IMG/VR virus record: IMGVR_UViG_3300022854_000013
Span: 1-22,550 of that record
Origin: a virus
Reading direction: 5' to 3' (one strand)
DNA: 22,550 nt
A program made the translations under genes and the position numbers. Below, piece after piece: positions 3,999 through 17,661 of this stretch; positions within the stretch are counted from its first letter, which is position 1, and every line of letters begins with the position of its first letter. The notes under the pieces were generated by a model, which saw only the letters and a list, made by a program, of their open reading frames with translations, was not told the origin of the DNA and did no database searches.

Positions 3999-4832
3999 AT
4001 GGGTGGAGTACCACAGGTAAGTCAAGGCCAGATAGATGAAATGAATAGAATAGCAGAAGAAAAGTACGGAACTGAGCCAGTTGTTGAAGAAGCTCCAATT
4101 GAAGAAGAGGCTCCAATTGAAGAAGAAGCTCCAGCAGAAGAACAAGAAGTAGCACAAGAAGTAGTTGCTGAAGAACCAGAGCCAGCGAAAAAAGTTACAG
4201 ATAAAGAAGAGAATATGCGTGTTTTGCGCGAACGTTATGAAAGATCTGAACGTTCACGTGATGAACTATCACAGCAAGTACAGGACTTGCAAGGTAGATT
4301 TAGAGAACAACAACCACAGAAAGCTAAAGAACCTGAAGAAGACGATGATTTACAGTTTGAACCGGATGATCTTGCTGAAGGTAAACATTTACTAAAATTA
4401 GTTAAAAAGATTAAGAATCTCGAGGAAAAGCTTGACCGGAATGCTGCTAATGCTCAAGTATCTACTGCTGAGATAAAGGTTAAGAGAGACTTTCCTGATT
4501 TCGAGAAAGTAGCCAGTCAGGAGAATTTAAAGAAGCTACGTGAAATGGATCCAGACCTTGCAGATGCAATCTTATCAGCACCTGGTATATATAAGAAACA
4601 TGCGCTTGCATATAAAATGGTCAAGCAAATGGGTATTTACATTGAAGATAACCATACTAAAGAGCGCGCTGTAGCTGTTAATAATGCAAGCAAGCCTCGC
4701 CCATTAGCCTCTATTTCACCACAACGAGGAGATTCGCCACTATCTAAGGCAAACGCATTTGCAGGCGGCTTAACTGAAGATCTTAAAAAGCAACTCCATA
4801 AAGAAATGATTGAAGCGATGAAAAATCATTAA
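3999..4832 (+). CDS. putative scaffolding protein
   Basis: A 277-aa, highly charged protein immediately upstream of the capsid gene, the usual place of the internal scaffold that guides procapsid assembly and then leaves. Residues 25-65 are an acidic Glu/Pro/Ala tract with a repeated EEAPIEEEAP unit, seen in DNA as GAAGCTCCAATTGAAGAAGA-like copies at about 4088-4140. Residues 70-110 form a coiled coil (NMRVLRERYERSERSRDEL). A second acidic part (EPEEDDDLQFEPDDL) precedes a Lys-rich helical region. The C-terminus is helical and basic (LTEDLKKQLHKEMIEAMKNH), as expected of a capsid-binding tail. The start has AAAGGAAAT upstream. Assignment rests on composition and position; there is no catalytic motif. 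Confidence 0.65.
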   Translation: MGGVPQVSQGQIDEMNRIAEEKYGTEPVVEEAPIEEEAPIEEEAPAEEQEVAQEVVAEEPEPAKKVTDKEENMRVLRERYERSERSRDELSQQVQDLQGRFREQQPQKAKEPEEDDDLQFEPDDLAEGKHLLKLVKKIKNLEEKLDRNAANAQVSTAEIKVKRDFPDFEKVASQENLKKLREMDPDLADAILSAPGIYKKHALAYKMVKQMGIYIEDNHTKERAVAVNNASKPRPLASISPQRGDSPLSKANAFAGGLTEDLKKQLHKEMIEAMKNH

Positions 4833-4852
4833 AAATCTTTCTTGTGTAGTCC

Positions 4853-4893
4853 GGGGCCAGCGATTCTGCTTCCCCATAAACCCTGCTGGCCCC
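4853..4893 (+). terminator. strong hairpin after scaffold gene, possible terminator
   Basis: GGGGCCAGC (4853-4861) and GCTGGCCCC (4885-4893) are perfectly complementary around a 23-base loop and are followed by TATATTTATATA, T-rich but without a continuous U-tract. It may reduce readthrough from the upstream operon into the capsid promoter region, or mark an RNA end. Confidence 0.45.
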
Positions 4894-4908
4894 TATATTT
4901 ATATAATG

Positions 4909-4938
4909 TTTACAATAGTTAAACTATGATCTTATAAT
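4909..4938 (+). promoter_or_regulatory. sigma70-type promoter of the capsid gene
   Basis: TTTACA (4909-4914) and a perfect TATAAT (4933-4938) are 18 bases apart, immediately after a strong hairpin. Initiation near 4945 would leave a leader of about 145 bases before the capsid start codon. This would give the capsid gene its own strong transcription, as expected for the most abundant virion protein. Confidence 0.5.
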
Positions 4939-4944
4939 ATGAAA

Positions 4945-5089
4945 GACGTATTAAAGGTTCGTCACCTTTAGGCGTATTGAGTTTCGCCAACTCGCGACGT
5001 ATAAAGAACTCGTCAATCTTAAGTGTAAATAGGTAGATAAGGAACTCTAAACAGTTTGTTATCTATAATAATTATAACTTAGGAAAAAC
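4945..5089 (+). promoter_or_regulatory. structured 5' leader of the capsid mRNA
   Basis: Two adjacent hairpins are visible: TAAAGGT/ACCTTTA (4952-4970, 5-base loop) and GGCG/CGCC (4971-4988). The sequence GACGTAT occurs on both sides (4945 and 4996) as a direct repeat. The leader ends in AGGAAAAACATG, a modest ribosome binding site. It may stabilise the mRNA. It does not resemble a riboswitch I know. Confidence 0.35.
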
Positions 5090-5401
5090 ATGGCAATTAC
5101 AACGACCACACTCCTTCCGGCGCCAGTAGCGCAAAGTTTTAGTTATAAGCTTTTATCCGTTCCAACACCCAACTTGATTCACAATATTCCAGCAATAAAA
5201 AAATCCATGCCTAGGAACGGTGGAAAGATTCTGCGTATGCGCAGATATAACGCTCTCGGAACGGCAATGGTACCTCTCGGAAATGGAGGTCTAACCCCAC
5301 CGCCTCAAACATTATCAGCGGTTGACATAGATGCAGAGATGTCATTTTACGGAACATATATCGTAATAAATGAGCAGGTTGCACTGCAAAATCAAGACCC
5401 T
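5090..5401 (+). CDS. major capsid protein, exon 1 (N4-gp56 family)
   Basis: Exon 1 encodes residues 1-104 of the major capsid protein, which forms the icosahedral shell. The reading frame goes on past 5401 only to a stop at 5462-5464, adding about 20 unrelated residues. The last exon residues (YIVINEQVALQNQDP) match the N4-gp56 capsid family, in which this is followed by a segment like that encoded from 6186 (VLNEAAARLG...LTRDML). The exon ends exactly after codon 104 (CCT), so the intron is in phase 0. The last six bases, GACCCT, pair with GGGGTC at 5411-5416 to form intron helix P1 with a U.G pair at the splice site. The spliced product is 315 aa, close to the lower end of the family's usual size. 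Confidence 0.88.
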
Positions 5402-5456
5402 AAAATGAATGGGGTCTATAAACCTTTTCTGATTGACTTGGAAGCCGTAGTAGCTT

Positions 5457-6002
5457 TTAGCTAACCGGCGACAGGGGCGAAGGATTTTTTAAAGGATGAT
5501 TATGCCAACGAGAATTAAGATTTCGACTAACCAGCAAGCACTCCTCTCTGATGTTAATAGCATCTTCGGTGGGCTTTGTATGCTGTCCAATTTTATTGGT
5601 AAAGGTTTGTCTAAATTTTATCATATTCTCGCAGTGTCTCTTTTTTATGACAAGGTACGGAAGAATAGAGTGACAAAGCTCCAAGAGTTTATCTCCTGTA
5701 GCAACCCAAGAATAAATCGGTCTTTCGTAAGCTCTATTGGATGTCCATCTTGTTTGAGCGGAGTTAACTCCCTCAAAATTAGTGGTGAGCCATTCAATGA
5801 GAATTTTATCGGTGCTGTCTATTTTAAGAAGGCCACGATGATGCTTAGAAATTTCACCGTTATATTTTCTATTAGCTTGTCCTATATAAAGACAACCTTC
5901 TCCATCTACAATTCCAGCCAAGTAAGCCAACTTAACAGGCTCATAGGTTCTTGGAATGAAATTTGGAGATCTGCGGTAGTATTTTTTACGTTCTTTTTGC
6001 AT
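5457..6002 (-). CDS. intron-encoded LAGLIDADG homing endonuclease (antisense orientation)
   Basis: A 181-aa protein with the motif LAGIVDGEG at residues 28-36. This is the single LAGLIDADG helix of homing endonucleases that act as homodimers; D33 and E35 fall in the region of the catalytic acidic residue. It is followed by the usual beta-sheet part and the helical element SILPYLVIKKRHCENMIKF (residues 113-131), ending in the common EEC...LN region. It would cut intronless capsid genes and so spread the intron. It is coded on the strand opposite to the capsid. AAAGGAA lies four bases before its ATG, and a promoter lies just upstream. The last dozen residues are antisense to the intron core (P5-P6a), so one stretch of DNA serves two functions. 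Confidence 0.88.
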   Translation of the reverse strand: MQKERKKYYRRSPNFIPRTYEPVKLAYLAGIVDGEGCLYIGQANRKYNGEISKHHRGLLKIDSTDKILIEWLTTNFEGVNSAQTRWTSNRAYERPIYSWVATGDKLLELCHSILPYLVIKKRHCENMIKFRQTFTNKIGQHTKPTEDAINIREECLLVSRNLNSRWHNHPLKNPSPLSPVS

Positions 6003-6021
6003 AAAGTTCCTTTCGTTTATT

Positions 6022-6050
6022 ATTATACGTTAGTTAACGATAGATGTAAA
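6022..6050 (-). promoter_or_regulatory. sigma70-type promoter for the homing endonuclease
   Basis: On the minus strand TTTACA (6045-6050) and a perfect TATAAT (6022-6027) are separated by 17 bases. RNA would start near 6015, about a dozen bases before the ATG at 6002, just enough for the AAAGGAA ribosome binding site. This is the closest match to a consensus promoter seen in the window. Confidence 0.6.
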
Positions 6051-6185
6051 ATTATCCACGCTGAACGACTAAGTGAAAAGGCCCTATTTATAGGGATGCG
6101 ATAGTCTGGACTCCAGAGGAAACCTGGAGAGGGAAGTTCGAAGAAGCTTCCTCGCCTAGAAATAGGTCATAAAAGTAACAGAATG

Positions 6186-6821
6186 GTTTTAAATGAAGCA
6201 GCAGCGAGACTTGGAGTCTCCCTTCGTCAGACAGAGGATCAGTTAACAAGAGACATGCTTACTGCCACTGCGGGCTTCATTAACTGCACGGCTGGCGTCG
6301 GTGGAGATAATCCGACAGAGATAACTTTACCAGATATTCAAGATGTAAATCGTGCATTGCTTGGTGACGATGCTTATACCATTATGGACAATATTGAGGG
6401 TTCAAATAAGTTCGGATCCGCGCCTATTCGTGATGCATATTTTGCTATGTGTCATACAGATTTGAGTAAAGGCTTGGAATCTGTTGCTGGATTCATTCAA
6501 AAGAATCAATATCCAGCTCCAATGAAAGCTTTAAGATCTGAGTGGGGCGCAGCTGGCAATACTAGATTCTTGCTCTCTTCGGTTGGTTCTATAACGCCGA
6601 ATGCTTCTCTACTCGATAAGGATGTTTATAACATTATAGTTGCAGGCATGGAAGCATACGCTGTAATTGAACAAGATGGCCATTCTGCTCACTTTCTTTA
6701 CAGACCGGCAATTTTTTCGGATCCACTTGCACAGAATATTTCAGTTGGTTATAAATTTGCAGCTGTACCTAAACTCTTGAATGACCTTTGGGTTCTCAAT
6801 TTACGCTGTACATTGGCATAA
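6186..6821 (+). CDS. major capsid protein, exon 2 (N4-gp56 family)
   Basis: Exon 2 supplies residues 105-315 of the major capsid protein. It opens VLNEAAARLG and LTRDMLTATAGFINC, the core N4-gp56 pattern, and later contains PIRDAYFAMCHTDL, SEWGAAGNTRFLLSS and LAQNISVGYKFAAVP, typical of the family's C-terminal half. An ATG immediately upstream (6183) makes the exon look like a separate gene, but no ribosome binding site precedes it and the protein lacks the N-terminal third. Joining GTT at 6186 to CCT at 5401 keeps the frame and restores the family's sequence. The next gene starts 13 bases after the stop, so capsid and the following virion gene are probably on one mRNA. Confidence 0.88.
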   Translation, partial: VLNEAAARLGVSLRQTEDQLTRDMLTATAGFINCTAGVGGDNPTEITLPDIQDVNRALLGDDAYTIMDNIEGSNKFGSAPIRDAYFAMCHTDLSKGLESVAGFIQKNQYPAPMKALRSEWGAAGNTRFLLSSVGSITPNASLLDKDVYNIIVAGMEAYAVIEQDGHSAHFLYRPAIFSDPLAQNISVGYKFAAVPKLLNDLWVLNLRCTLA

Positions 6822-16956: not shown

Positions 16957-17238
16957 TTAATATTTAAAAAGCTTCCAGCTTGTAGTCAAACCTTCTCTTC
17001 TGTAAGGTTCTAGATCAATGCCTTGTAGTTGAGGAATTTTTGAATATAAGATAGATCCTTTACGTTCTATCTTTTGATATCGAAAGTTTTTGCTTTCAGA
17101 ACTTTCATTTTCTGATAGAAACTTTAACTGTTCAAGCAGCTTTTTTTCAAGCATTTCGTATTCTTTGCGCCTTTTTTGAGCTTTGTAGGCTTCTTTGGCA
17201 ATATTTTCCCACTCTTTTTCACGTTTAATATAGTCCAT
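16957..17238 (-). CDS. protein resembling the C-terminal part of YqaJ-type phage nucleases
   Basis: 93 aa from the preferred ATG at 17238. A first ATG at 17244 lies directly on AAGGA with no spacing, whereas the second is six bases away. Residues about 5-50 are a charged coiled coil (EWENIAKEAYKAQKRRKEYE). Then comes a small strand-rich end with YQKIERKGSILYSKIPQL, GIDLEPYRREG and a final Trp-containing strand. A helical segment followed by 'RKGSvdY..iPeLkGvdlE.yRk....W' is what I remember from the C-termini of YqaJ-type viral recombination exonucleases. The catalytic nuclease domain is absent. It may be a split subunit, a remnant, or a DNA-binding accessory. The resemblance is from memory and needs a profile search. 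Confidence 0.6.
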   Translation of the reverse strand: MDYIKREKEWENIAKEAYKAQKRRKEYEMLEKKLLEQLKFLSENESSESKNFRYQKIERKGSILYSKIPQLQGIDLEPYRREGLTTSWKLFKY

Positions 17239-17249
17239 ATTCATTCCTT

Positions 17250-17495
17250 TTAGTTTTTATATATCCAAATAATTGTGAACATTACTACAATCCCAGTTAT
17301 CAAAAATAGCCGTATCCACCATGAAAACTTTATCTCAAACTTCTCTATCTCTTTCGCCTCAACGTCCTTATCTAACAGCCTTAAATGTTGGAAGCGTTGG
17401 TAGCACTGCTTCGTGCAAAACTTTCGTTTAATGCCGTTTTTTTGGTCATATGCAAACTCTCTGTTACAACCCAGACAATTTTTTATTACTTTCAT
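17250..17495 (-). CDS. zinc-finger protein with C-terminal transmembrane helix
   Basis: 81 aa. Cysteines 7, 10, 27 and 31 (CLGC, then CTKQC) form a C-x2-C-x16-C-x3-C arrangement, a probable zinc-binding knuckle. After a charged helix (about 38-57) follows a single membrane segment at about 61-79 (LFLITGIVVMFTIIWIY). The N-terminal domain should face the cytoplasm, because K/R residues precede the membrane segment. The ATG has GAAGG about ten bases upstream and lies within the end of the RHH gene (32-base overlap), so both are read from one mRNA. A role in holding a complex at the membrane or blocking superinfection can be imagined, but no family is recognised. Confidence 0.6.
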   Translation of the reverse strand: MKVIKNCLGCNREFAYDQKNGIKRKFCTKQCYQRFQHLRLLDKDVEAKEIEKFEIKFSWWIRLFLITGIVVMFTIIWIYKN

Positions 17496-17661
17496 TTATA
17501 AAGACCTTCTCTCTCTCTTTTTTTATTTTTATCAATATTGCATTTTGAACATATGATGTTATAGTTTCTCTATTTTGATATGCATATTCTTTAAGTTGAA
17601 TAGCTAAATTATCACTTATAAATAGTGCTAATCTAGTCCTTCCATGACGCTCTTTACCCAT
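17464..17661 (-). CDS. ribbon-helix-helix (Arc/MetJ-type) transcriptional regulator
   Basis: 65 aa. RTRLALFIS (8-16) has the alternating pattern of the DNA-contacting beta strand. It is followed by helix A (DNLAIQLKEYAYQN), a short turn, and helix B (ITSYVQNAILIKIKKERE): the standard RHH dimer fold used by Arc, Mnt, MetJ and many antitoxins. AAAGG precedes its ATG. It is the first gene of a four-gene minus-strand operon, divergent from the tail fibre gene. A 9-base direct repeat lies in its own promoter, as expected for autoregulation by RHH dimers. No matching toxin is obvious; the next gene is a zinc-finger membrane protein. A free regulator like Arc/Mnt is the more likely reading. Confidence 0.65.
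   Translation of the reverse strand: MGKERHGRTRLALFISDNLAIQLKEYAYQNRETITSYVQNAILIKIKKEREKVFINESNKKLSGL

Follow-up and report, generated by a model that had tools for sequence, protein, structure and literature searches.

A reverse-oriented homing endonuclease gene with a promoter-like sequence of its own in a phage capsid intron, accompanied among its relatives by an open opposite strand or a boxA-like sequence

The capsid intron and its endonuclease gene

The IMG/VR virus record IMGVR_UViG_3300022854_000013 (positions 1-22,550, 22,550 bases; the window) encodes a P22-like portal protein and a major capsid protein, whose gene is interrupted by an intron that carries, on the opposite strand, a LAGLIDADG homing endonuclease gene (HEG). 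Both exons match the major head protein family phrog_1357, which identifies the interrupted gene as the capsid gene, and the capsid gene of intron-free relatives is contiguous exactly at the junction of codons 104 and 105. The coordinates of all features are collected in Table 1.

The intron possesses the U.G pair in P1 at the 5' splice site and the terminal G expected of group I introns. Covariation was counted for P3, P7 and P10, the P4-P6 pairs remaining outside the count. All seven pairs of P3 (of several pair types) and all five pairs of P7 are formed in 18 of 19 introns inserted at site 104, the exception being L036, which belongs to a different subtype; two further introns at this site were dropped from the P3/P7 count for want of a match to the P7 anchor. 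In P10, 20 of 21 introns form a Watson-Crick pair at the silent third base of codon 105, with all four pair types represented, and none of 20,000 shuffles was as good. The intron has no match to the group I models of Rfam, either at the gathering threshold or at E-values up to 10, which we take as sequence divergence because the defining group I pairings are present. Judged from its sequence, the element interrupting the capsid gene is a divergent group I intron, predicted to be self-splicing, and it appears that the capsid introns of an abundant group of uncultured phages escape Rfam. Folding of the whole intron RNA (z -2.6) yielded no usable core and was not used, and a weak c-di-GMP-II riboswitch hit on the minus strand (5364-5439; E=0.01, 24.9 versus 53.5 bits), which overlaps the P1 hairpin, was taken as chance. 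The core is common to HEG-less relatives of 219-239 nucleotides (nt), therefore the endonuclease gene and its promoter constitute an L6 insert. The stop codon of the HEG (5457-5459) falls inside the P5a loop, so that the end of its reading frame overlaps the ribozyme core in antisense.

The endonuclease exhibits the motif AYLAGIVDGEG, and D33, G34, E35 and G36, with the expected catalytic acid, are invariant among 20 aligned sequences. It matches phrog_5046 (E=9e-21) and I-MsoI (E=8e-6) and stays under the Pfam cut-off for LAGLIDADG_1 (16.1 bits, 23.1 needed). The AlphaFold model (pLDDT 84) finds its nearest PDB folds in I-MsoI and I-CreI, i.e. the predicted fold is of the I-CreI type. The protein models as a homodimer-type enzyme similar to I-CreI and I-MsoI, with cleavage of the intron-free capsid allele predicted, and a dN/dS of 0.19-0.27 against L005, L007, L008 and L015 indicates that the gene is under purifying selection. 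The preliminary description of this DNA had placed the gene, its reverse orientation, two promoter hexamers with a 17-nt spacer, a Shine-Dalgarno sequence and the ATG, and each was recovered where it had been placed.

Table 1. Features of the capsid gene, its intron and the reverse endonuclease gene, by position in the window
Feature	Position	Strand	Basis or remark
Promoter-like TTTACA-N18-TATAAT ahead of the capsid gene	4909-4938	+	hexamers near those of the HEG promoter
Major capsid protein, exon 1 (codons 1-104)	5090-5401	+	phrog_1357 match
P1: exon AGACCCT (5395-5401) with guide GGGGTCT (5411-5417)	5395-5417	+	U.G at splice site
Group I intron, 784 nt, terminal G	5402-6185	+	P1/P3/P7/P10 covariation; HEG-less homologues of 219-239 nt
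P10 strand AAT	5408-5410, partner 6186-6188	+	covariation
P3 5' strand	5423-5429, partner 6075-6081	+	covariation
P4, P5, P6 5' strands	5437-5479	+	manual assignment checked against sequence
Single-motif LAGLIDADG HEG, 181 amino acids (aa)	5457-6002	-	phrog_5046, I-MsoI match, model, dN/dS
P6a/L6 region housing the HEG cassette	5482-6057		comparison with HEG-less introns L027, L048, L061, L079
AAAGGATGATTATG: Shine-Dalgarno and ATG for the open frame 5496-6104	5491-5504	+	
Open frame exactly opposite the HEG codons (proposed translational cover)	5496-6104	+	ends at TAG of P7 3'
HEG start codon ATG	6002-6000	-	
Shine-Dalgarno AAAGGAA	6007-6013	-	ahead of HEG ATG
Sigma-70-type promoter (predicted) TTTACA-N17-TATAAT	6022-6050	-	-35 6050-6045, -10 6027-6022
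P6 3'	6059-6062	+	
P7 5'	6067-6071	+	
P3 3'	6075-6081	+	
P8	6082-6095	+	
P7 3'	6102-6106	+	
Major capsid protein, exon 2	6186-6821	+	phrog_1357 match; joined translation is a single open frame

Orientation and promoter among the relatives

Relatives were collected with capsid exon 2 irrespective of HEGs (best 80 of 466), with the profile A1, built from 20 antisense HEGs and scanned over viral contigs (best 80 of 399), and in one further search (best 80 of 139). Among the first 87 loci, 28 HEG reading frames are antisense to the capsid gene versus 6 in sense. The best 80 of the exon 2 sample comprise 22 loci with antisense and 5 with sense HEGs, L063 having both, while the best 80 of the A1 scan added 72 new loci, several of them sharing one contig with others, and all 72 are antisense; here the antisense query biases the result towards antisense, a bias from which the capsid-based sample is free. 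The HEG tree places 94 antisense domains on one branch (support 90/95) and 9 of 10 sense domains outside it as a group of their own, the tenth (L144) being at the antisense base. As far as these sequences go, reverse orientation is the norm for capsid-intron HEGs in this phage group. The preliminary description had regarded sense orientation with a hidden ribosome binding site as usual for phage intron endonucleases, which holds for T4 (PMC2988022) but not as a general rule, considering the antisense norm found here and the mycobacteriophage LittleE discussed below. Two-domain LAGLIDADG genes in sense orientation were seen in the capsid introns of L018 (3809-4864), L077 (3873-4931; its frame continues into the core sequence) and L059 (3684-4931). 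Those of L018 and L077 occupy the same site as the window intron, so that site holds both solutions. In the named isolate StenR_269 a related HEG lies in sense directly upstream of the capsid gene.

Within the 90 nt preceding the HEG ATG, none of 200 dinucleotide shuffles scored as high as the observed promoter (p=0.005, compared with p=0.32 for the opposite strand); a region-wide promoter scan taken alone was not significant (12 sites versus 8.8 +/- 2.7). For the family, 27 hand-listed entries were removed (sense or second HEGs, near-duplicates, and L223 with its unclear start), and the 79 remaining rows were reduced to 61 at 75% identity; some starts are probably wrong (L056, L269, some GTG/TTG) and count against the promoter. 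Among these 61 non-redundant relatives the best site reaches p<0.05 in 23 cases for the HEG strand versus 1 for the opposite strand (35 and 2, respectively, at the 90% shuffle threshold), and a spacer of 17 nt is best in 20, versus 3.9 expected with spacers 10-25 weighted equally, a fivefold excess over shuffles. In 20 of 21 loci the promoter, the ribosome site and the start come after the antisense of P7/P6, within 32-95 nt, the locus outside this count being L052, which has no anchor match. The HEG's own promoter, as proposed in the preliminary description, is clearly enriched across the 61 relatives on the HEG strand only; it appears to be a sigma-70-type feature of the family, and we infer that it is used. 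The window promoter contains no I-TevI-like operator copy of the homing site, the best match being worse than all shuffles. The predicted minus-strand transcript would span L6 and the 5' strands of P4-P6, and would not cover P3-3', P7, P8 and P9.

The strand opposite the endonuclease

The codons TTA, CTA and TCA, which read as stops on the other strand, account for 1 of the 29 leucine and serine codons of the window HEG versus 43% in the phage's other genes. Their counts across the 61 HEGs are bimodal: 46 genes, including that of the window, have 0-3 and the other 15 have 6-15. TTA/(TTA+TTG) is 0.12 in the 46, 0.82 in the 15 and 0.69 in the window genes; CTA/(CTA+CTG) is 0.10 versus 0.90 and TCA/(TCA+TCG) 0.33 versus 0.88 in the two groups. 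The corresponding ratios of the control codons ACA, CCA, GTA and GCA in the 46 (0.76-0.83) are similar to those of the window genes, which rules out AT or GC codon bias as the cause. Thus, 46 of 61 antisense HEGs specifically avoid the reverse-complement stops. Opposite the HEG, a frame of at least 120 open codons is present in 46/46 versus 0/15, and a strict combination of Shine-Dalgarno and ATG occurs near its start in 19 of the 46 (18 in the open frame, 1 in another) versus none of the 15. In the window, AAAGGATGATTATG lies 27 nt past the stop that ends exon-1 translation within the intron. The open frame as a continuation of the capsid frame is ruled out by phases that vary among the loci. 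This constrained capsid-sense strand had been overlooked in the preliminary description.

The 15 HEGs without an open opposite strand are distinguished by a second feature. The pattern [AGT][AT]TCTTTGA[AC]A, searched on the capsid-sense strand, resembles what we take to be the boxA of ribosomal RNA (rRNA). It is found within 700 nt upstream in 15/15 of them versus 0/46 of the open ones, and within 260 nt in 14/15 versus 0/46 (Fisher 7e-13, uncorrected for kinship); in L015 it sits in a separate upstream intron. The window has no such sequence upstream in its intron. L223 and other distinct antisense HEGs outside the 61 were reused as held-out rows: among these 33 antisense domains, 29 have the open frame and no boxA, 3 have boxA and a closed frame, and 1 has neither boxA nor an open frame, i.e. 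32 of 33 agree. On the HEG tree, the open and boxA states exchange 6 times by parsimony and at least 4 times by supported branches, one switch, L015, falling inside the window's own clade. In one genome, all 7 16S genes have GTTCTTTGAAAACTGAA 93-157 nt upstream, while two 16S loci of another genome have no boxA-like sequence upstream. In an E. coli reporter, a 567-bp noncoding insert led to Rho termination, which boxA partly relieved, and rRNA itself was argued to hardly need boxA for antitermination (PMC4807359).

The best explanation of these observations as a whole, which we consider probable, is a reverse HEG cassette with its own promoter combined with the handling of polarity on the sense strand. 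A mobile group I intron in the capsid gene bears in L6 a complete reverse cassette of promoter, ribosome site and LAGLIDADG HEG, and the endonuclease would be made from its own short mRNA, early or constitutively, independent of the late capsid transcript. It would cut intron-free capsid genes, and the double-strand break would lead to copying of the intron into them. The cost would be about 550 nt of non-capsid sequence within a late operon of high expression. In most of the relatives, as in the window, the capsid-sense strand is kept open opposite the HEG, with a start signal that would allow ribosome cover, while a minority have a boxA-like sequence, putatively for antitermination, instead, and do not keep the frame open. 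As to the specific proposal of two alternative anti-polarity devices, either a translated cover frame whose product is irrelevant or a boxA antiterminator, with Rho polarity as the putative cause, we lean slightly towards it. If true, a gene's codon usage would reflect the sequences that have to be kept off its antisense strand, and mobile elements could impose coding constraints on the strand opposite their gene. About 95 natural replicates exhibit a strict alternative, either an open sense strand or a boxA-like element, and have switched between the two several times independently; polarity could thus be directly tested by adding stops or boxA, and a single odd locus would become a testable system for the antisense conflict with a host transcript.

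Several points weigh against this reading. A strict Shine-Dalgarno and ATG stand at the expected place for just 19 of the 46 open frames; the window frame shares the phase of exon 2, not that of exon 1, and the phases differ across loci, so coupling to capsid translation would not be general. One held-out locus, L207 (domain L207f_2929), is neither open nor boxA-bearing; this domain was observed to have a long branch. The presumed identity of boxA draws on its resemblance to the rRNA boxA and on the rRNA leaders of one genome. With respect to the promoter, 38 of the 61 are not significant taken singly, and spacers of 23-24 nt are likewise over-represented (16/61 versus 5.8). The preliminary description had looked to closely related introns for the motif being kept; among the nearest non-identical relatives, this proved right for L007 (TTTACA-17-TACAAT, p=0.005) and L008 (TTGACT-17-TATAAT, p=0.005) but not for L005, where the promoter is weak or displaced (p=0.035, non-consensus -10 at the homologous place), or L015, where it is weak (p=0.11).

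Or perhaps the open sense frame is a real second gene, e.g. for a maturase or a regulator, overlapping the HEG codon for codon? We regard this as unlikely. The frame is long, is under selection to remain open and has a Shine-Dalgarno sequence and ATG in many loci, but the third positions of the HEG are the first positions of the opposite codons and HEG dS (synonymous divergence) exceeds 0.9 in all computable pairs, so the product would change fast; moreover, it matches no PHROG family and Pfam only below threshold, and its loss tracks boxA-like sequences, which protein function does not predict. We give slightly less credence to an incidental promoter-like sequence, with the HEG being barely expressed or depending on some other transcription of the minus strand: AT-rich DNA yields many chance sites and several relatives score poorly, yet the strand-specific enrichment, the preference for a 17-nt spacer in the 61 relatives and the purifying selection on the HEG argue against it. 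Regulation of capsid pre-mRNA splicing by the antisense HEG mRNA, through pairing with L6 and P4-P6, seems more doubtful again. The two RNAs are complementary by construction, and the end of the HEG reading frame overlaps the antisense of the P4-P6 5' strands; however, introns without a HEG do not have the cassette and presumably still function, and the start site leaves P3-3', P7 and P9 uncovered. Finally, a codon bias that the HEG brought along from another genome, conceivable for mobile genes, is a highly improbable source of the TTA/CTA/TCA avoidance, as other A-ending codons are normal versus their G-ending partners, only the three reverse-complement stops drop, and the state switches within HEG clades along with boxA-like sequences.

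Further features and comparison with known systems

Outside the window, 40 distinct relatives (e.g. L051, 4661-4698, and L056) have an insert of 28-54 nt after capsid codon 88. These mini-introns exhibit a P1 of their own, in which TACGGT pairs with GCCGTA or GCTGTA. Their P10 has a Watson-Crick pair at the third, silent base of codon 89 in 40/40, of four pair types, compared with at most 29 in 20,000 shuffles; they end in G in 40/40 and contain an in-frame stop in 39/40. The 3' half of each insert pairs with exon sequence immediately preceding the next intron (mean stem score of 20.6 versus 14.7 when swapped). Among loci not retrieved by the mini-intron motif, 23 of 80 capsid regions have the insert, each of them together with an intron further downstream as read from the sequences; the insert is missing from the introns L264, L266 and L279 at site 97 and from most introns at site 104. 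The mini-intron has nowhere near the length that a catalytic core requires, hence such core-less elements are probably spliced by the core of the neighbouring intron. Translational bypass is an unlikely alternative, the codon before the landing site being GGN in 0/40. Introns with small exons and exon skipping between introns have been described in Bastillevirinae phages (PMC11878797).

A few other observations concern the capsid gene and its surroundings. The capsid gene of the window has a long leader (4832-5090). The near-identical relative L002 shows an extra gap of about 240 nt in capsid exon 2 near residue 185, which has no counterpart in the window and is probably a polymorphic second intron. 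On the minus strand at 16957-17661, three small open reading frames (95, 81 and 65 aa) are found amid plus-strand structural genes.

The closest published arrangement is that of LittleE (record JF937101; PMC3706429, 2013), in which a spliced capsid intron contains a reverse LAGLIDADG frame, gp14. Like the window HEG, gp14 belongs to phrog_5046 and lies inside the intron on the strand opposite to the capsid gene, and it matches the family profile of the window HEG (E=2e-11, one-sequence search). The differences are that gp14 shares about 27% identity over 99 aa with the window HEG, that no promoter-like sequence better than shuffles precedes it (144/300 as good), and that it also matches endonuclease families outside the LAGLIDADG part. 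HEGs antisense to their intron are known as well from the nuclear ribosomal DNA (rDNA) introns Dir.S956-2 and Dsq.L2066 of Didymium, the former with a potential internal promoter (PMC9548176); unlike the window HEG, these are His-Cys box genes of eukaryotic rDNA, with spliceosomal introns and poly(A). The authors of that paper pose the question of how the antisense conflict with the host transcript is avoided, and propose nuclear compartments for Didymium.

The T4 intron HEGs of the td/I-TevI type resemble the window HEG in having dedicated middle or late promoters and differ in being sense genes with a hidden ribosome site and operator control (PMC2988022), i.e. the reverse orientation and the missing operator-like match set the window HEG apart from I-TevI-type regulation. 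T4 segD is antisense and adjoins the capsid gene; it is, however, free-standing, and the same paper reports no promoter for it. In the ShiLan insertion element a homing endonuclease likewise occupies DNA in which the host strand has a frame without stops, but there the endonuclease is of the HNH type, on the same strand, in a frame continuous with the host gene, and not in an intron (PMC11855218), whereas the window HEG is antisense, LAGLIDADG, and opposite a frame whose phase is not tied to the capsid frame. The relatives without an open frame bear GTTCTTTGAAA-like sequences, comparable to the 16S upstream regions, and in this respect recall boxA/Nus antitermination, known from rRNA operons and lambda nut sites (PMC4807359), whose occurrence in phage introns we infer here. 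In the literature searched, mostly outside subscription journals, no description was found of the open-strand/boxA alternative or of core-less group I mini-introns. The arrangement as such is already known from the reverse capsid-intron HEG of LittleE and the antisense HEGs of Didymium with a potential internal promoter, while the clade-wide orientation rule, the conserved promoter and, above all, the alternative between an open strand and a boxA-like sequence appear to be new.
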